Below are positions 7,093 to 24,332 of a DNA stretch of 38,508 bases, piece after piece; positions within the stretch are counted from its first letter, which is position 1; each line of letters starts with the position of its first letter. Both the position numbers and the translations under genes were made by a program. Source of the stretch: a virus; IMG/VR virus record IMGVR_UViG_3300024518_002736, positions 1 to 38,508 of that record. The stretch is one strand, 5' to 3'. Below the pieces are notes generated by a model that worked only from the letters and a program-made list of their open reading frames with translations, had not been told where the DNA came from and made no database searches.

Positions 7093-7920
7093 ATGTTAGA
7101 TGAAAAAGTAGAAGATTTTTTTAATTATATAAACGAAAGACACGCTATCTATATAAATAAAGAAGCGGGTGCAGAATTTCCTTGGACAGAGGATAAAATA
7201 CTACAAGACTATAGTTTTTGTAATGTGTTTAGGGAACTAGATACAGTCACTATATGGCTTCGTGAAAATTGGCGTGAACCTTACGCCGATCATCCTAATT
7301 TGCCCTTTGCTATGGCTATGGCTAGACAAATTAATTGGCCACCAACACTAGCAGAAATAGGCTTTCCCGAAGAGTGGAACCCAGAACATGCTAAAAATGT
7401 TATGCGTGCCCGACAGATTAAAAAGGAAAAAGTATACACAGGGGCATACATGTTAACGGGAACGCTGGGTGGTCCAAAAATTGAACAAACTATTGATAAA
7501 ATACTAACCCCACTATATGAAAACCCACCTGAAATATATACTCATTCACTACAACGTACTTGGAGAGAGTATTTGCCATATAAAGGGTTCGCTAAGTTTA
7601 TATCTTATGAAGTTGTTACAGACCTAAGACACACTAAACACTTGAATAAGGCGAACGACATTATGTCTTGGGCTAATCCAGGTCCAGGAGCAAAGAGAGG
7701 ACTGAATAGAATCAACGGTAATGAACTTAACGAACCTATACACATTAAGAGAGCCATTGAACAAATGGAAGACCTACTAGACGACTCTAGAAAAGGACTT
7801 GAACCGTTTGTGCCTGCTTTAGAAATGAGAGACATAGAACATTGCCTCTGCGAATTTGATAAATATGAACGAACCAGACTAAACCAAGGGAGACCACGTG
7901 CAAAATACAGACCTAAGTAA
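7093..7920 (+). CDS. HMUDK/AADT helical-domain protein (putative thymine hypermodification enzyme)
   Basis: 275 residues matching the helical domain seen in 5-hydroxymethyluridine DNA kinases and alpha-glutamyl/putrescinyl-thymine pyrophosphorylases. Recognisable blocks are FPWTEDKIL-x4-SFCNVFRE-x-DTVT-x-W (residues 28-54), REPYADHPNLPFA, INWPPTLAEIGFPEEW and, near residue 195, GPGAKRGLNRI. In hydroxymethyl-dU phages these proteins modify the 5-hydroxymethyl group on DNA after replication. No P-loop kinase domain is fused to it here, so the exact chemistry (kinase partner, pyrophosphorylase or amino-acid transfer) is open. It leads a four-gene cluster with a methyltransferase, a glycosyltransferase and a thymidylate-synthase homologue, which supports a base-modification role. 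Confidence 0.82.
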   Translation: MLDEKVEDFFNYINERHAIYINKEAGAEFPWTEDKILQDYSFCNVFRELDTVTIWLRENWREPYADHPNLPFAMAMARQINWPPTLAEIGFPEEWNPEHAKNVMRARQIKKEKVYTGAYMLTGTLGGPKIEQTIDKILTPLYENPPEIYTHSLQRTWREYLPYKGFAKFISYEVVTDLRHTKHLNKANDIMSWANPGPGAKRGLNRINGNELNEPIHIKRAIEQMEDLLDDSRKGLEPFVPALEMRDIEHCLCEFDKYERTRLNQGRPRAKYRPK

Positions 7921-8584
7921 GTGGGGGTGGAACGATAAGGTCAAAGGATACACTAGACCAGACACCCTAGATGAATATGTTTTTAAAGAAATTAAGTCAT
8001 CCTATAAGTACCTAGACATAGGCGAAGGAGATAGTGTCCTAGACATAGGGGCTAACATAGGGGCATTCTCTAAGTATGCTTTAGAAAAAGGAGCACATAG
8101 GGTTTATGCCTATGAACCTGAACCTGAGAACTATGAATTATTAGTAATTAACACGCACCCTGATTTCTTCCCCATAGGGGCAGGACAAATACTAAGGGTG
8201 AAGTCTGCTGTGGTTGGCACAAATGAAACAGAGATAGAGTTGTATATTAACTCTAAGAAAAATAAAGGACTACACATGACCAGACCAGTGCGTGGTCGCG
8301 AAGGAGTTACGGTTCGTGCGGAGAATTTTGGTAAAATACTCCATAAAAGACAACCAAACAAAGTAAAGATTGATGTAGAGGGAGGGGAGTATGGCTTTAT
8401 GCCCATAACTTTCCCTGATTGTGTAGAAAAATTAGTAATGGAACTACACTTTCAATACAGTAAGAATTGGAGAGGCATGGCGGTGAAAATACATGAAGAC
8501 ATGTTGTCGCAAGGCTTCTCTGTAATAAAAGAACCTAAATTTACAGGTGGTAATTGGACCACACTAGCGGGGTATTCAAGATGA
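7898..8584 (+). CDS. FkbM-type SAM-dependent methyltransferase
   Basis: 228 residues. The SAM-binding motif I is VLDIGANIGAFS (residues about 47-58), followed by the acidic motif II YAYEPEP, and FkbM-like KIDVEGGEYGFM around residues 153-164. The family typically O-methylates sugars or other small hydroxyl groups, so a hydroxymethylated or glycosylated DNA base is a reasonable but unproven substrate. Translation starts at GTG 7898 with AAGGGAG five bases upstream, overlapping the previous gene by 23 bp, and the 3' end overlaps the glycosyltransferase by four bases (ATGA). Tight coupling on both sides argues that the product acts in the same pathway. Confidence 0.85.
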   Translation: MQNTDLSKWGWNDKVKGYTRPDTLDEYVFKEIKSSYKYLDIGEGDSVLDIGANIGAFSKYALEKGAHRVYAYEPEPENYELLVINTHPDFFPIGAGQILRVKSAVVGTNETEIELYINSKKNKGLHMTRPVRGREGVTVRAENFGKILHKRQPNKVKIDVEGGEYGFMPITFPDCVEKLVMELHFQYSKNWRGMAVKIHEDMLSQGFSVIKEPKFTGGNWTTLAGYSR

Positions 8585-9339
8585 AAATATACATTCCAAC
8601 AAGAGGTAGGGCTAACTCTCAAATAACCCTAAAGTTTTTTCCTGACGGTCTAAAGGAAAAAACTATATTAGCGGTAGACCACGACGAAAGAGACCTTTAC
8701 AGTCAATACTCAAATGTTTGGGTGATGCCCGAAGACCTACCTAGTGGAATTTCTCCTAAGAGAAAATACATATGTGAGAACAGCGACGACCCTAAAATAG
8801 TCATGCTAGACGACGACATACGGTTCTATGTAAGAAAAGCATATAACGATTGGCACCTACGGTATCTAGAACCACATGAACTTCCAGCAATGTTTGGTGT
8901 ACTAGACCAATGGCTAGGTGAGTATGCACATTGCGGAGTAAGCGCTAGGGAAGGCAACAACAGAATAGAACAACTTTCTGTAGAAAACACTAGATACATG
9001 CGCCTACTTGCCTATAACTTAGACATGCTCGATGGGGTAGAGCTCGGAAGAACTCGTATCATGGAAGATTTTGATGTTAACTTACAACTATTGAGACAAG
9101 GTAAAAAGTCTAAAGTAAGTTATTATTATGCACAAGGGCAAGGCACCTCAAACGCTGACGGAGGATGCAGTGAGTGGCGTAATTTAGGGGTACAAGCAGA
9201 GGGCGCAGAACTTCTAGGCTCTTTACACCCTGACTTTGTGCGGGTGGTAGAAAAGAAAACTAAAGAGGCTTGGGGTGGAGGCACTCGCAAGGATGTAATC
9301 GTACAATGGAAAAAGGCATATGCAAGTAGTCAAAGTTAG
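8581..9339 (+). CDS. TET-associated-type glycosyltransferase (GT-A fold)
   Basis: 252 residues from the ATG at 8581 that overlaps the methyltransferase stop as ATGA; a longer reading from 8554 is less likely. The N terminus MKIYIPTRGRA and the metal/nucleotide-sugar acidic motif VMLDDD (residues 74-79) match the GT-A-like glycosyltransferases described next to TET/JBP oxygenases and hydroxymethyl-pyrimidine systems in phages. In such systems they attach a sugar to hydroxymethylated bases in DNA. A second acidic cluster, IMEDFDVNLQLLRQG at about residue 160-175, fits the usual catalytic region. The neighbours (HMUDK-type protein, methyltransferase, dUMP hydroxymethylase-like protein) support action on phage DNA. 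Confidence 0.75.
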   Translation: MKIYIPTRGRANSQITLKFFPDGLKEKTILAVDHDERDLYSQYSNVWVMPEDLPSGISPKRKYICENSDDPKIVMLDDDIRFYVRKAYNDWHLRYLEPHELPAMFGVLDQWLGEYAHCGVSAREGNNRIEQLSVENTRYMRLLAYNLDMLDGVELGRTRIMEDFDVNLQLLRQGKKSKVSYYYAQGQGTSNADGGCSEWRNLGVQAEGAELLGSLHPDFVRVVEKKTKEAWGGGTRKDVIVQWKKAYASSQS

Positions 9340-10402
9340 AAATGTAAATATAGCCCTACCACTAGGGCTGACTCTTCTTTATGAAGATGGAATACATAGA
9401 AGAAGCAGGGGTGGGGACGTTATAGAATATCCTGGAGTCGTAGCAACTGTCTACGAACAACCAAGAGAAAGAGTATTACTTAGTCCAGAAAGAGACGCTA
9501 ACCCTTTCTTCCATTTTATGGAAGGACTGTGGATGCTTGACGGCAGAAACGATGTAGATAGTATTGCTCATTATGTTAAACGCATGGGTAAGTTTAGTGA
9601 CGATAATACCACACTACACGGAGCATATGGACATCGTTGGAGAAACCATTTCTCTTGTAGAGATCAATTACTAGAAGTCATAAACCGACTTCAAACATTC
9701 CCAGAAGATAGGAGGGTGGTCTTGACTATGTGGGATCCAGAAGCAGACCTACTTATAGACTCACTAAAAGCAAAAGATGTCCCATGTAATACGCATGTTT
9801 ATTTTAAACTTAGAGAAAACAACTTAGACATGACTGTATGTTGCCGAAGTAATGACATTATCTGGGGCGCTTACGGCGCTAACGCAGTACATATGTCTAT
9901 GTTACAAGAGTTTATTGCCAATGCTGTTGACGTAGAAGTAGGAACGTACACTCAAATTAGTGACAGCTATCATGCCTATCACGACGTTTACTCAGAAATG
10001 ATAGACAAGATCCCTCCTGTAGATGTTTATAGTTTTCACCATGTCTACAGAGACCCTTATAAGTGCGGAGAGATAAAACCGTACAACAAAATGGTCAATA
10101 CTCCAGACTTTGATCAATGGCTCTATGTAAACTCTAAGTTTCTGGAAGTTGTTTTTGCAAACCCTGCAAACCCACAGGAAATTCGTCCTTGGGCAGCCAC
10201 ATCGTCTATCCCAGGATACGACATAGACCCCTTCTTTATATATGTCGCTGAACCTATAGCTATCGCTTGGGAACACTACAAACTTTTTAAAGAGACAGGC
10301 GTAAAAGAAGACTTCGATAATGCAGTAGAAGAAGCAAAAAGGTGTATTGCTCAAGATTGGAGAACAGCTTGTGTCCAATGGTTAGAAAGGAGGGCAATCT
10401 AA
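9320..10402 (+). CDS. Thymidylate synthase / dUMP hydroxymethylase family protein
   Basis: 360 residues of the ThyA fold. It keeps the catalytic cysteine (VPC at 154-156), the substrate-binding R-S-N-D at 176-179, an asparagine at 188 in a G-A-Y-G-A-N segment, the D-x-x-H-A-Y block at 215-220 and YGHRWR at 103-108. It is about 100 residues longer than cellular ThyA. The segment around N188 has one more residue than the usual GLPFN of ThyA, and R-S-N-D differs from the usual Q-R-S-x-D block, so a changed reaction is plausible. Next to HMUDK and glycosyltransferase genes, a dUMP hydroxymethylase making 5-hydroxymethyl-dUMP is more likely than plain dTMP synthesis. That preference is inference. 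It overlaps the preceding gene by 20 bp. Confidence 0.82.
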   Translation: MQVVKVRNVNIALPLGLTLLYEDGIHRRSRGGDVIEYPGVVATVYEQPRERVLLSPERDANPFFHFMEGLWMLDGRNDVDSIAHYVKRMGKFSDDNTTLHGAYGHRWRNHFSCRDQLLEVINRLQTFPEDRRVVLTMWDPEADLLIDSLKAKDVPCNTHVYFKLRENNLDMTVCCRSNDIIWGAYGANAVHMSMLQEFIANAVDVEVGTYTQISDSYHAYHDVYSEMIDKIPPVDVYSFHHVYRDPYKCGEIKPYNKMVNTPDFDQWLYVNSKFLEVVFANPANPQEIRPWAATSSIPGYDIDPFFIYVAEPIAIAWEHYKLFKETGVKEDFDNAVEEAKRCIAQDWRTACVQWLERRAI

Positions 10403-10432: not shown

Positions 10433-11122
10433 ATGAGTATAGATAAAACAATAAACCGGTGGTCACATAGTCGATTAGGCACTTATGAAAGTTGTCCTAA
10501 GAAAGCGTACTACAGATATATTGAACACATAGCCGAAGAGCAACACCCTGCTGCAGAACGCGGTATTAAGATCCATAATCTGGCGGAGGAGTATATCAAA
10601 GGTGAAATAGAGGAAGTCCCAAGAGAGCTATACTTATTTTACGAAGGTTTTGAGCAACTAAGAGAAGAGTATATGTGTGGGGAAGTTTCTGTAGAAGAAC
10701 AATGGGCATTTAACCTTAGTTGGGAGAAAACTGATTGGAATGGTGAAGACACATGGGGCAGATATATTATTGACGCCTTTGTTAAACAAGGCACTAAGGC
10801 TAAAGTTATAGACTTTAAGACAGGTAGGTTCAAGGATAAGAACGAAGGATACAAGAATCAGTGTTCTCTTTATGCTTGTTGTGTGTTTAACCGCTTCCCT
10901 GAAATAGAGGAAATAGACACAGAACTATGGTACTTAGACCACCATAAAATAACTCGTTATAGCTTTAAGCGGGAAGACTTAAAAGAGATACAAGAGAATT
11001 TTCATAAAAGGGCATTAGCCATGACTACGGACACGGAGTTCGGCACGACCCCTTCTGAGTTTGCTTGTCGTTGGTGTTCTTTCACTAATATTTGTAAGGA
11101 TAATTTTTATGCAAGAGCTTAA
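10433..11122 (+). CDS. Cas4/RecB-like PD-(D/E)XK nuclease with Fe-S cysteines
   Basis: 229 residues. The nuclease core is visible as H48, D114 (YIIDAF) and D127-F-K129 (VIDFKTG), followed by a Q-x3-Y motif at about residues 143-147. Four cysteines, C21 at the N terminus and C212, C215 and C221 near the C terminus, match the Cas4/AddB-type 4Fe-4S arrangement. Family members are 5' exonucleases or end-processing enzymes in recombination; phage copies next to replication genes are generally not CRISPR components, and no CRISPR array is present here. It sits between the modification cluster and the nucleotidase and overlaps the latter by 14 bp. Confidence 0.88.
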   Translation: MSIDKTINRWSHSRLGTYESCPKKAYYRYIEHIAEEQHPAAERGIKIHNLAEEYIKGEIEEVPRELYLFYEGFEQLREEYMCGEVSVEEQWAFNLSWEKTDWNGEDTWGRYIIDAFVKQGTKAKVIDFKTGRFKDKNEGYKNQCSLYACCVFNRFPEIEEIDTELWYLDHHKITRYSFKREDLKEIQENFHKRALAMTTDTEFGTTPSEFACRWCSFTNICKDNFYARA

Positions 11123-11609
11123 CGCGTTGTTTAAGGTTATGTCGAGTGGAGACGTTAAACGCTATCACACAGTTCCTACACTTGGTGAACAGACTAACGC
11201 TACTCATTGTTGGGGTGTAGCAGTAATTGCAACATACCTACATCCTGAGATGAATGCAGCGTTGTTGCTAAACACAATACTCCACGATGTGGGGGAAATA
11301 GACACAGGAGATATTCCTGCAACGGTTAAGTGGGCGCACCCAGACTTAAAAGAAAAACTAGACGCTATTGAAAACAAGCTAGCTAAAAACCTTAAAATAG
11401 AACATAAAATTAGTGTTAAAGAGAAAGCGATCCTAAAACAAGCAGATATGTTTGAGTTATTATTCTTTTGTTTAAAACAAAGAAAACTTGGCAATCGACA
11501 CATTAGCCACATTTTCGGTAACGGTGTTGAGAAACTTGCTGATGGAAATTTGAATAGCCGTGGTGAAGAACTATTGGCAGACCTACTAACTAAATACGGA
11601 GAAATATGA
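11109..11609 (+). CDS. YfbR-like HD-domain 5'-deoxynucleotidase
   Basis: 166 residues from ATG 11109; an in-frame start at 11061 would overlap the nuclease by 62 bp and is disfavoured. The HD motifs align with bacterial YfbR: R18, H33, L-H-D-V-G-E at 58-63, T-G-D-I-P-A-T-V-K at 66-74, and K-Q-A-D-x-F in the C-terminal half. The family hydrolyses dNMPs to nucleosides in a metal-dependent way. In a phage suspected of replacing thymine, a dNMP phosphatase could remove dTMP or adjust dUMP supply; this is inference from the neighbourhood. It overlaps the following gene by four bases (ATGA). Confidence 0.85.
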   Translation: MQELNALFKVMSSGDVKRYHTVPTLGEQTNATHCWGVAVIATYLHPEMNAALLLNTILHDVGEIDTGDIPATVKWAHPDLKEKLDAIENKLAKNLKIEHKISVKEKAILKQADMFELLFFCLKQRKLGNRHISHIFGNGVEKLADGNLNSRGEELLADLLTKYGEI

Positions 11610-11983
11610 TGGACCCAATAAACCTTAGGAAATTAACAGAAGAGGATATTGAGTGTCTAGTGAAAGCTGAACGCTCTTATGGTGATTCTTGGAAAAAACG
11701 TGGCGGTGTTGGAGCATTTATGATGCTTGCCCGTAAATGGGACAGGCTTGAAAAACAAGTATGGAACTATGGTTGGGACATTTTTGAGGCAATACAAGAC
11801 GACGATAGACCAGAAGGAGTCTTAGACGATATTCGAGATCTGAGGCGATATTTATTATTAGTTGAAGAGGAGATGGAAAGGGAGTCAGAACTCCGTACAC
11901 CTATTCCTGATGAAATTACCGAAGGCATAACCCTAGAAACATTTAAGGTGCAAAATGACTCAGATACCAATGTTTCAGACTGA
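11606..11983 (+). CDS. DUF1599-like (nucleotide modification associated domain 1) protein
   Basis: 125 residues, mostly helical. The segment RSYGDSWKKRG-x7-LARKWDRLE and the later VLDDIRDLRRYLLLV resemble the D/S-Y-G-x-x-W, R-L-x-x-K and D-x-x-x-D-L-x-x-Y pattern of DUF1599, a MazG-like all-alpha family linked to nucleotide or base-modification systems. A catalytic role in nucleotide pyrophosphate hydrolysis is possible but not established for the family. The acidic C terminus is probably flexible. It lies between the nucleotidase and the DNA polymerase, overlapping both, so a function in dNTP pool control fits. Confidence 0.65.
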   Translation: MMDPINLRKLTEEDIECLVKAERSYGDSWKKRGGVGAFMMLARKWDRLEKQVWNYGWDIFEAIQDDDRPEGVLDDIRDLRRYLLLVEEEMERESELRTPIPDEITEGITLETFKVQNDSDTNVSD

Positions 11984-13835
11984 ATCTAGTTGGGCGCCTC
12001 CTTCCTTGCTTCCCGACCTAACTGGAGAAAAGGAAATAGCAATTGACTTAGAAACCCGAGACCCTAACCTTATTAAACGAGGTCCAGGATGGGCAACAGG
12101 GGATGGAGAAGTGGTTGGAATAGCCGTTGCCAGTAAAAACTGGTCAGGATACCTACCAATTAAACACGAAGGGGGTGGGAATCTAGACAAAGCGTTTATC
12201 CTACACTGGTTAGCTGCTCAACTCAATACAAACAGTGATAAAATATTCCATAACTCCTTATACGATGTTGGTTGGTTAAAACGAGAAGGGGTGGAACTTA
12301 GTGGAAAAATACAAGATACAATGATTGCTGCACCCTTAATCAATGAAAATCGCAATCGGTATTCATTAGATTCACTTGGTGCAGAGTACTGTGGTGAAAG
12401 AAAAGACGAAACTCTACTCAAGCGGGCAGCACAAGAATGGGGGATTAACCCTAAAGCAGAAATGTGGAAACTCCCGTCCAAATACGTCGGGGCGTATGCT
12501 GAGCAAGATGCTGTGCTCACACTTAAACTGTGGAACAAAATGAAGCCAGAGATAGAAAAACAGAATTTAAGTTCTATCTACGAATTAGAAAGCGGGCTAC
12601 TTCCTTTATTAATAGAAATGAGGTGGAGGGGCATACTGATCGATCAAAACAAAGCAGAACAAACTTCAATAAGCCTTAAACGTAAAGAAGTAGAAGCCCT
12701 AAAGGAAGTAAAAAGGCTCTCTGGAATAGATGTAGAGGTTTGGGCATCGGCATCAGTGGCCAAAGCCTTTGATAAACTAGGGGTAAGCTACCCTAGAACT
12801 ATTCGCACTAACGCACCTAGCTTTACATCTCAATGGTTAGAAAGCCATGAACACAAACTACCTAAAGCGATTGTAAGGGTACGCAAGTTAAATAAGATAC
12901 GTACTACCTTTATCGATAAAATGGTATTCGAGCACTTACATAAGGGGCGTTTACACGCACAGATAAACCCGCTACGGTCTGATAACGGCGGTACTGTCAC
13001 AGGAAGGTTCAGCTATAGCACACCCAACCTACAACAAGTGCCTGCTAGAGACCCCGAACTTGGGGAACTGGTGAGAGAACTATTTATACCCGATGGAGAC
13101 ACCTACTGGGGAGCATTTGACTACAGTCAACAAGAACCTAGACTAACGGTTCACTATTCTTCATTAACTAAACAAACTGGTGCGGAAGAAGCTGTTAAGG
13201 CGTATCAAGAAGAAAATGCAGATTTTCATCAAATTGTAGCAGACATGGCAGGTATTGATCGTAAAAAGGCTAAGATGATTAATTTAGGACTTAGTTACGG
13301 CATGGGTAGGCAAAAGCTAACAATGTCCTTAGGGATTTCAGAAGCAGAAGCAGAACAACTTTTTTCTAAATACCATAAGCGTGTACCGTTTATAAGAGGT
13401 CTCACTAATGCTTGTATGCGTAAAGCATCTAATAAGGGGTTTATAACCACGTTATTAGGTAGAAAGTGTCGGTTTAACCTATACGAACCTCAGGGGGAAA
13501 GAGGGGTGCCCCTTCCATACGACCAAGCAACAGCAAAGTGGGGAGAAAAAAGACTAGAGAGAGCCTACACATATAAAGCGCTCAATAGGTTAATACAAGG
13601 ATCAGCTGCAGATATGACCAAGAGGGCTATGTTGGACTTGTGGAACGAAGGGTATGTTCCTTATGTACAAGTACATGATGAACTAGACCTAGCAGTTTCG
13701 AATAAGAAAGAAATAGAGAATATTAAAGAAATCATGGAACAGTGCGTCAAACTGCAAGTACCAAACATTGTAGATGCAGAAATTGGAAAAAGCTGGGGCA
13801 AAGCAACACAATCATACGAGGAGGTATTCGAATGA
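11955..13835 (+). CDS. Family A DNA polymerase with 3'-5' exonuclease
   Basis: 626 residues. The proofreading domain shows Exo I D31-L-E33, Exo II HNSLYDVGW near 100 and Exo III Y-x-x-x-D (YAEQDAV) near 180. The polymerase domain shows motif A FDYSQQEPR, motif B K-x-x-x-INLGLSYGMG and motif C VQVHDELDL near the C terminus. There is no N-terminal 5' nuclease, so the layout is like T7 polymerase. It is the replicative polymerase and would have to accept any modified dUTP made by the upstream cluster. Its start lies 29 bp inside the previous gene and its stop overlaps the next start as ATGA. Confidence 0.96.
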   Translation: MTQIPMFQTESSWAPPSLLPDLTGEKEIAIDLETRDPNLIKRGPGWATGDGEVVGIAVASKNWSGYLPIKHEGGGNLDKAFILHWLAAQLNTNSDKIFHNSLYDVGWLKREGVELSGKIQDTMIAAPLINENRNRYSLDSLGAEYCGERKDETLLKRAAQEWGINPKAEMWKLPSKYVGAYAEQDAVLTLKLWNKMKPEIEKQNLSSIYELESGLLPLLIEMRWRGILIDQNKAEQTSISLKRKEVEALKEVKRLSGIDVEVWASASVAKAFDKLGVSYPRTIRTNAPSFTSQWLESHEHKLPKAIVRVRKLNKIRTTFIDKMVFEHLHKGRLHAQINPLRSDNGGTVTGRFSYSTPNLQQVPARDPELGELVRELFIPDGDTYWGAFDYSQQEPRLTVHYSSLTKQTGAEEAVKAYQEENADFHQIVADMAGIDRKKAKMINLGLSYGMGRQKLTMSLGISEAEAEQLFSKYHKRVPFIRGLTNACMRKASNKGFITTLLGRKCRFNLYEPQGERGVPLPYDQATAKWGEKRLERAYTYKALNRLIQGSAADMTKRAMLDLWNEGYVPYVQVHDELDLAVSNKKEIENIKEIMEQCVKLQVPNIVDAEIGKSWGKATQSYEEVFE

Positions 13836-16663: not shown

Positions 16664-17254
16664 ATGACAAGTGGATTATGGGACGACGACCCTCTCGTCG
16701 ATGAATACGAAGATAAAATCATTCATCATTCATTTTGTATTATAAACAATACAATATATAAAATCAAACACGAAGATTCAAATAAACTGCCCAAAGACAT
16801 TGTCTCATGGGCGTCTAAGTGGCACTTCAACAGGCACGAAAACAATGAAAGTTTATTGCAATTGTATAAACAATTTGTAAAGAACCCCCCAATTAAGAAA
16901 TTTAAAGAGAAAGACCGCACGTTGTTAATAGACAAGTTGTGGGATCTTTTTATTGAACGGGCAACCGAATATGAGCCAGTTTCATTAAGTGGGTTGCTCT
17001 ATCTAACTAGAAAAGAAGAAAAGATAGAGAAGAAAGTAGTTAAGGCTAAAAAACCAAGAGTATCTGCCGAGACCTTCGTTTCTAAGAACGGGGATCGTAA
17101 GGTTCGGTTAACAGGTAAGGTTCCTGTTAGTAAGACTAACGCTTCGCGGTTAAAATACTATACTAGTAACCCTATTATTAAAGAAGTAGTCGAGCAGGTC
17201 ACTCTAAGGGCGCTACGCTATGATTTAAGGGTAGGTTACATAGAAATTATATAA
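16664..17254 (+). CDS. Hypothetical protein with basic linker
   Basis: 196 residues, not recognised. An acidic N terminus leads to a helical domain with W-A-S-K-W-H-F-N-R-H around residue 48, a lysine-rich linker (EEKIEKKVVKAKKP) and a C-terminal alpha/beta domain rich in R, K, V and T. The basic linker suggests nucleic-acid contact, but no known fold can be named. It shares the promoter and leader at 16208-16403 with the preceding gene. Confidence 0.72.
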   Translation: MTSGLWDDDPLVDEYEDKIIHHSFCIINNTIYKIKHEDSNKLPKDIVSWASKWHFNRHENNESLLQLYKQFVKNPPIKKFKEKDRTLLIDKLWDLFIERATEYEPVSLSGLLYLTRKEEKIEKKVVKAKKPRVSAETFVSKNGDRKVRLTGKVPVSKTNASRLKYYTSNPIIKEVVEQVTLRALRYDLRVGYIEII

Positions 17255-23014: not shown

Positions 23015-23050
23015 CGTACAAGAACGATAATCGATAATCATGATGAACAT

Positions 23051-23080
23051 GAACAAGAACCATTGCTCTTCTTCTTGTTC
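23051..23080. repeat. 29-nt hairpin repeat, copy 1
   Basis: GAACAAGAA (23051-23059) pairs with TTCTTGTTC (23072-23080). Positions 23051-23079 match 23581-23609 except at two bases. It precedes the first small-gene cassette. Confidence 0.75.
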
Positions 23081-23152
23081 TTGCTCTTTGTTCTTCTTCT
23101 TGTTCGCGTACGCACGGGCTTTTGCTCCTCTTTATGTTCTTTTAGAAAGCCC

Positions 23153-23181
23153 TTTACTTTCTTAAAGTAAACGGGTATGCT
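23153..23181 (+). promoter_or_regulatory. Promoter of the first paralogous cassette
   Basis: TTTACT (23153-23158), 17-bp spacer, TATGCT (23176-23181). The leader ends in AAAAGGTGA before ATG 23228. Confidence 0.78.
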
Positions 23182-23227
23182 ATAGGTACTACTTAATAAA
23201 AAGTGGCAACAAACTAAAAGGTGAAAT

Positions 23228-23524: not shown

Positions 23525-23556
23525 AATCCCCCTTGCTTCGGTAAGGGGGATTTCCT
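23525..23556 (+). terminator. Intrinsic terminator of the first cassette
   Basis: AATCCCCCTT (23525-23534) pairs perfectly with AAGGGGGATT (23543-23552), followed by TCCTCT. Confidence 0.75.
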
Positions 23557-23580
23557 CTAACCCATAATCAACAAGAACAA

Positions 23581-23609
23581 GAACAAGAATCATTCCTCTT
23601 CTTCTTGTT
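23581..23609. repeat. 29-nt hairpin repeat, copy 2
   Basis: AACAAGAA (23582-23589) pairs with TTCTTGTT (23602-23609). It matches copy 1 at 23051-23079 in 27 of 29 positions and is extended on its left by more AACAAG units from 23570. Confidence 0.75.
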
Positions 23610-23825
23610 GTTCAGCATAAGCATAAGATAAAGATAAACAAATCAAAACCCCAACTCGTATTCATGTTCATGCTCATGCTCATGTTGTTCTTGCATGTAT
23701 GCGTATATAGGCGTAGGCGCGTTACGCGGGTATAAAATAAACCCCTTTACTTTTATAGTAATTAGTATAAGGTAGTAGGTAGGTATTAAATAATTAATAC
23801 CGTTAATTAATAAAGGTAAATAAAA

Positions 23826-24131
23826 ATGGTTAATAAAAGTAAAGTTAGTACCGTAACTATAAACGGTAAAGCCTATAACCTAACCGCTAAAATAGCGGTA
23901 GCTAATACGGCTAGGCTAGGGGTTAATAACGCGTATATAGCTAATAGTATTTACGGTATAGCTACCGTAGGTAATATAGTTAATAAAAAAGCCTACCCTA
24001 ATACTAGGGTAGCTAGCGCTATTAAAACTAGCGCTTTAGCTAAAGCCGGCGTAACGCTAAATAGCTTAGTATTTAGTAAAAGCGGGCTAGGCTACTTTTT
24101 AAAGGCGGGTAATATAACTATTACTAGCTAA
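23826..24131 (+). CDS. Composition-constrained small protein, second paralogue
   Basis: 101 residues, not recognised. Because GA, CA, TG and TC are excluded from the DNA, the protein has no D, E, H, Q, C or W and no internal M. All serines use AGT or AGC and all phenylalanines TTT. It is rich in A, N, K, T, V, G and I. The C terminus (SGLGYFLKAGNITIT) keeps eight identities over 15 residues with the neighbouring gene at 23228, so it has a conserved fold despite the restriction. ATG follows AAAGGTAAATAAAA; the usual AGGTGA is changed to AGGTAA. A perfect terminator lies downstream. It looks functional rather than decayed. Confidence 0.82.
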   Translation: MVNKSKVSTVTINGKAYNLTAKIAVANTARLGVNNAYIANSIYGIATVGNIVNKKAYPNTRVASAIKTSALAKAGVTLNSLVFSKSGLGYFLKAGNITITS

Positions 24132-24145
24132 AGTAAAGGGCTATT

Positions 24146-24180
24146 AAACCCCGCTAACTTAACGGCTAGCGGGGTTTTTT
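24146..24180 (+). terminator. Intrinsic terminator of the constrained gene
   Basis: AAACCCCGCTA (24146-24156) pairs perfectly with TAGCGGGGTTT (24167-24177) across a ten-base loop, and the run of six T ends at 24180. Confidence 0.88.
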
Positions 24181-24332
24181 AATAGGGGCTAGGGGTAAGT
24201 ATAGGGGTTAAAAGTAAAAGGGTTTAAAACGTCTATAACTAAGCCTTAACGGTAGCCCCCACCCCCCTTATAGCAGTAGTTGTAGCGTTAGCTAAAGCGG
24301 TAAGTTTTGGAGAACCATTGTCCATGGATATT

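Follow-up and report, generated by a model that had tools for sequence, protein, structure and literature searches.

A viral transcription unit without T before G or C, and its co-occurrence with a putative thymidine-hypermodification cassette in marine phages

In the metagenomic virus record IMGVR_UViG_3300024518_002736, analysed here over its full 38,508 bp (hereafter the window), one small transcription unit lacks the steps TC, TG, GA and CA, which together amount to T followed by G or C (TpS) on either strand. A preliminary description, made from the letters alone, read this absence as one rule acting on DNA and imposed by selection, which raises the question of whether the rule holds, where else it occurs and what a phage might gain from it. 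A targeted literature search returned no description of TpS-free genes.

Extent of the TpS-free block

The absence is genuine. A count across the whole block agreed with the preliminary description in finding a single instance of the four steps inside 23701-24232, the TG of the ATG at 23827, an exception that arises because ATG, GTG and TTG each contain TG. The block is bounded by a TG at 23700 and a TC at 24232, and its gaps without TpS measure 127 bp and 405 bp, the next longest in the window being 48 bp. At the combined frequency of the four steps over the window (0.228 per position), approximately 121 would be expected in 531 bp, and the 405-bp run alone has a log10 P of about -45 in an independent-site approximation. 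The remaining 12 dinucleotides are all found in the block, with TA in excess (108 steps). On the 3' side of 24232 just four more steps occur (24260, 24274, 24281 and 24308) before normal density resumes. In short, T precedes A or T alone on both strands, the start codon excepted, and this also covers upstream DNA and reaches ~50-70 bp past the terminator. Continuation of the rule ~50 bp beyond the terminator indicates a property of double-stranded DNA, and its span over leader, gene and terminator on both strands supports the earlier proposal of a single strand-symmetric rule distinct from codon bias. The claimed terminator and the ordinary TpS content claimed for the adjacent gene also held up (Table 1).

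The gene within the block (copy B) encodes a protein without D, E, H, Q, C or W, and all of its serine codons are AGY. Its promoter-like element has a short spacing (14 bp) and an uncertain -10 box. The CTTTACTT element, itself TpS-free, is present in 21 copies in the window, the majority in gaps 5' of genes; one precedes copy B (23745), one the adjacent gene, copy A (23152), and there are 19 others. Its density is 0.55 per kb in the window versus 0.03-0.09 in relatives negative for HMUDK (see below), and several copies of the CTTTACTTT promoter-like element carry a TATRNT-like box ~17 bp downstream. TpS-rich repeat arrays (TTCTTG, CATGATCAGATGATC, GACACAAAGACA) flank the A and B units.

Table 1. 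Coordinates of features in the window and in related contigs
Feature	Location	Strand	Evidence or remarks
HMUDK_hel (PF18723) protein	7093..7920	+	E 2.2e-45; 40% identical to M6 gp55
FkbM-type methyltransferase, modification cassette	7898..8584	+	
TAGT-family DNA glycosyltransferase (PF20691)	8554..9339	+	E 3.3e-21
Thymidylate-synthase-like protein	9320..10402	+	PF00303 3.6e-21, phrog_5131 1.4e-111
YfbR-like HD nucleotidase	11061..11609	+	Missing together with the cassette in G007
196-aa protein	16664..17254	+	C-terminal domain as in copy A/B family; normal TpS
TpS-rich repeat arrays	23030-23110, 23541-23700; L135:19596-19900; L171:1250-1410		
Promoter-like element of copy A, CTTTACTTT-N-TATGCTATAG	23152..23185	+	Motif search
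Copy A gene, 96 codons	23228..23518	+	Ordinary TpS (obs/exp 0.86); probable copy B paralogue
TpS-free block: leader, copy B gene, terminator and ~50 bp more	23701..24232	+	Dinucleotide count
Promoter-like element of copy B: CTTTACTTT, -35-like TTTACT at 23746, TATAAG at 23766	23745..23771	+	Inferred promoter
AAAGG ribosome-binding-like site, 9 nt 5' of ATG	23812..23816	+	Sequence; rule kept
Copy B gene, 101 codons	23826..24131	+	ORF and codon counts
Intrinsic terminator, CCCCGCTA ... TAGCGGGG TTTTTT	24149..24180	+	Hairpin -21.5 kcal/mol; rule kept
TpS-free leader alone, 5' of TpS-normal family gene	L140:2619-2788; G041 (L310) 11824-12011		
TpS-free copy B frame without ATG at start, possible ATT start	L189:4952-5227; also L336		

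Selection on codons

With random synonymous codons at genome usage, the copy B protein would be encoded with 55 +/- 5 of the four steps, against 0 observed (z = -10.6). Twelve TpS-poor genes lie 5.8 to 10.8 standard deviations below the same expectation; six of them (G000, G005, G019, G042 and both G021 copies) reach the minimum that their protein allows, and a seventh (G029) is one step above it. Serine is encoded by 67 AGY and 3 TCN codons in copy B genes versus 78 and 93, respectively, in other short members of the family, and most of the TpS exceptions left in copy B genes fall in start codons or in codons for D, H and E. These counts show that TpS avoidance is selected, in line with the earlier view of a unit kept under the rule rather than degraded.

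Small-protein family and recurrence in other phages

Copies A and B of the window are probably paralogues: a profile-profile alignment matched them at E 1.2e-4 with 55% probability, which makes homology probable, not proven. Neither has a match in Pfam, PHROGs or PDB, and these two and two other family members have none among annotated phages. The AlphaFold2 model of copy A, of fair confidence (pLDDT 79.5), consists of strands, then three short helices and finally one more strand, an arrangement that could bind DNA; fold searches with copy A gave no significant structural match, and the prediction for copy B (pLDDT 35) gave no usable model.

The family usually takes the form of two adjacent units, a copy A with near-normal TpS and a depleted copy B. 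The adjacent near-normal copy A is kept in most phages with a TpS-free copy B, and some genomes hold one of the pair alone. TpS obs/exp is 0.07-0.61 in 24 B-like genes versus 0.52-0.89 in 26 A-like genes (p = 3e-9, in a comparison that takes in closely related sequences); some copy B genes are just partly depleted (0.3-0.6), and copy A leaders are depleted as well (0.34-0.72). The B-like genes of L331 and L332, at ~0.6, could be decaying or newly adapting copies. In several genomes the TpS-densest 100-bp stretches adjoin the A/B pair.

Homologues of copy B with normal dinucleotide use, which the preliminary description had named as evidence against the block, were not found: the homologues in IMG/VR, with protein identities of 98-100, 60 and 53%, all obey the rule except for one TC in the leader of L003. 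A terminase search added four block-bearing contigs (L012-L015), with one copy B protein common to all four, and also many relatives without the block. The TpS-free blocks sought elsewhere exist too, since whole contigs of other HMUDK phages contain TpS-free or near-free genes of their own, belonging to the same small-protein family in further lineages and other marine phages. A search of 33 other HMUDK contigs with the A1 profile had detected no copy B, but a later DNA scan of these contigs revealed TpS-free genes of their own. On the family tree the TpS-free state needs 5 changes, at least 2 of them forced by well-supported branches; it arose repeatedly within the family.

Two departures from the usual form concern the start of the unit. 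In G020 and G041 a TpS-free leader is followed by a TpS-normal gene, and in G037 and L336 no ATG stands near the beginning of the copy B frame, which may start at ATT and would then avoid even the start-codon TG. These scans covered the loci retrieved for analysis, which are metagenomic records and include some incomplete contigs. Across ~716 kb of polA-selected loci there was no TpS-free run of at least 70 bp, and gaps of ~60 bp in other HMUDK contigs were set aside as AT-rich, apparently intergenic DNA.

Modification cassette and its association with the block

The window encodes a cassette (Table 1) in which the thymidylate-synthase-like protein is proposed to be a dUMP hydroxymethylase and the HMUDK_hel protein the TpS-recognising partner. 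The P-loop 5hmdU DNA kinase (PF18748, HMUDK_HMUD1) was found by profile search in M6 and G026, and not in the window or any marine relative searched. As these uncultured phages lack this kinase, the site rule must stem from HMUDK_hel or another protein; by analogy, we infer that HMUDK_hel selects TpS and that TAGT acts where the kinase does in M6. The window phage probably modifies thymines standing before G or C. The combination of HMUDK_hel and TAGT without the P-loop kinase (7093-9339) is possibly a distinct branch of thymidine glycosylation in marine phages.

Among 46 contigs, a strong TpS-free stretch (a 200-bp window below 0.3 TpS obs/exp) was present in 13 of the 29 carrying both HMUDK_hel and TAGT and in 0 of the 17 lacking either (Fisher p = 7e-4, a value that ignores shared descent), showing that in this sample such stretches are restricted to HMUDK+TAGT+ contigs. 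The small family follows the same division (25/29 versus 0/17). The strong block is missing from 16 of the 29, some of them fragments. Mild depletion is also seen in bulk, with TpS in HMUDK+TAGT+ contigs at 0.76 in intergenic DNA versus 0.94 in the others (p = 6e-7), 0.80 versus 0.95 in upstream DNA and 0.96 versus 1.04 in coding DNA.

Three relatives serve as natural comparisons. In G007, which shares synteny with the window (polA 75%, TerL 89%) and keeps the neighbouring spanin genes, the HMUDK-FkbM-TAGT-TS cassette is missing together with copy A and with copy B and its block. G025 retains HMUDK_hel (79%) and TS and lacks TAGT, the small family and the block; a different predicted glycosyltransferase-like gene, of 445 aa, occupies the TAGT position (L157:6558-7895), and its cassette also has a cupin-like and a dUTPase-like gene, these assignments having been made by eye rather than by profile search. 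G005 has cassette, family and block. HMUDK_hel alone was ruled out as the cause of the block by HMUDK+TAGT- contigs without one, M6 included. HMUDK and TAGT together were ruled out as a sufficient cause by HMUDK+TAGT+ contigs without a block and by Brevibacterium phage LuckyBarnes, whose lack of one in the part examined indicates that the enzymes alone are insufficient.

Proposed function and alternatives

We consider it probable that the block is a transcription unit free of every site at which the phage itself would hypermodify thymidine, and that this most likely allows the unit to be transcribed when the DNA is modified. The escape reading is supported by the identity of the avoided steps with the published TS motif (PMC6449724) together with the cassette in the window. 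Depleted copy A leaders and intergenic DNA, along with the TpS-free CTTTACTT, link the rule to transcription, and leaders are spared more strictly than genes (e.g. G020, G041). Since whole units are spared, leaders most strictly, and CTTTACTT is TpS-free, we propose that copy B is the gene expressed from DNA in its modified state.

We propose the following chain, in which the chemistry, its restriction to TpS in these phages and the effect on transcription are all inferred. The thymidylate-synthase-like enzyme would supply hydroxymethyl-dUMP, so that hmU replaces T in DNA; the HMUDK_hel protein would pick T preceding G or C, and TAGT would attach a bulky sugar at the selected T. With no TpS on either strand apart from the start codon, the unit would stay lightly modified. 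Bulky groups on DNA would hinder transcription initiation or elongation, and the small, possibly DNA-binding copy B protein would need to be transcribed from otherwise hypermodified DNA, either the entering genome or late progeny DNA. Copy A would supply a similar protein when modification is irrelevant.

It is also conceivable, if unlikely, that the block is kept unmodified for another DNA transaction, a terminase packaging cut or a replication origin, and that the gene merely lies inside. In almost every genome checked, the large-terminase gene is indeed 0.4 to ~3 kb away from the unit; however, TerS is at least 8-9 kb distant in most, cassette-less relatives package without such a block, and TpS depletion extends to copy A leaders and to intergenic DNA elsewhere. 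The rule moreover tracks the full transcription unit, leader and terminator included, and the TpS-free leaders standing alone before TpS-normal genes in G020 and G041 argue against this explanation too.

A built-in sensor of genome modification appears distinctly unlikely. Here paralogous regulators would sit in modifiable and unmodifiable DNA, B being expressed regardless and A dropping on modified DNA, and the A:B ratio would time the infection programme or check modification. Pairs of neighbouring paralogues, each with its own promoter and the two opposite in TpS content, do recur, as such a switch would have it, and TpS-dense stretches lie close to the pair in several genomes, but other genomes hold a single member of the pair.

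Local mutational bias, in which both strands undergo C deamination within TC and CA and the protein follows, would account for the excess of TA steps. We nevertheless reject it as very improbable, because TC to TT changes would turn Ser TCN into Leu or Phe whereas serine is retained as AGY, codons sit at the protein-constrained minimum, CC, CG and CT are still common and the precise edges on the unit would be left without a reason. An RNA-level rule by which the transcript avoids an endoribonuclease is rejected as equally improbable: the entire transcript obeys, but so does its reverse complement, as do the upstream DNA and the stretch past the terminator, and no ribonuclease with specificity for UC, UG, GA and CA is known to us. 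An assembly or binning artefact is scarcely credible even though all records are metagenomic, since the same architecture was recovered independently in many separate contigs with divergence at the protein level.

Significance and comparison with known systems

If the unit is indeed exempt from the phage's own modification, then phage base modification is not uniform armour, and sequence can write exemptions from it; modification would form an epigenetic layer through which some genes are built to be read. Site rules of modification could be inferred from sequence alone, TpS specificity would be predicted for HMUDK_hel plus TAGT, and a new small-protein family would be tied to thymidine hypermodification chemistry. 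It would also become possible to test a long-standing question, namely how a phage genome that is heavily modified can be transcribed when it enters the cell.

A close parallel is the system of phages M6, ViI and phiW-14, in which restriction analysis showed TG or TC to be common to the resistant sites, a TS motif read as the specificity of thymidine hypermodification and possibly set by the 5hmdU DNA kinase (PMC6449724). This motif, T before G or C, is identical to the steps avoided in the block, and the likeness extends to a thymidylate-synthase-like enzyme and an HMUDK_hel homologue (40% to M6 gp55). The systems differ in that M6 has the P-loop HMUDK_HMUD1 kinase beside HMUDK_hel, whereas the window has TAGT instead; contig comparison found no TpS-free block and no small-family member in M6. 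Among HTVC023P-type pelagiphages, the TS and aG/PT-PPlase1 pair is described in clades V, VIII and IX (PMC9599517), a paper in which a search found no dinucleotide analysis. The window is related to these podoviruses by its TerL (54-64%) and polA homologues, and the cultured HTVC023P and HTVC027P contain no TpS-free run of at least 60 bp and no small family. LuckyBarnes, a cultured actinobacterial phage, resembles the window in an HMUDK hit, TS and two TAGT-like genes, and the 38 kb of it that were examined contain no stretch depleted in TpS.

Phage genomes are known to avoid restriction sites, their sequence evolving to lack the sites of a DNA-acting enzyme. The block resembles such avoidance in its loss of sites for an enzyme that acts on DNA, and it differs in being essentially absolute, in being confined to one unit and in being aimed, apparently, at the phage's own modification.
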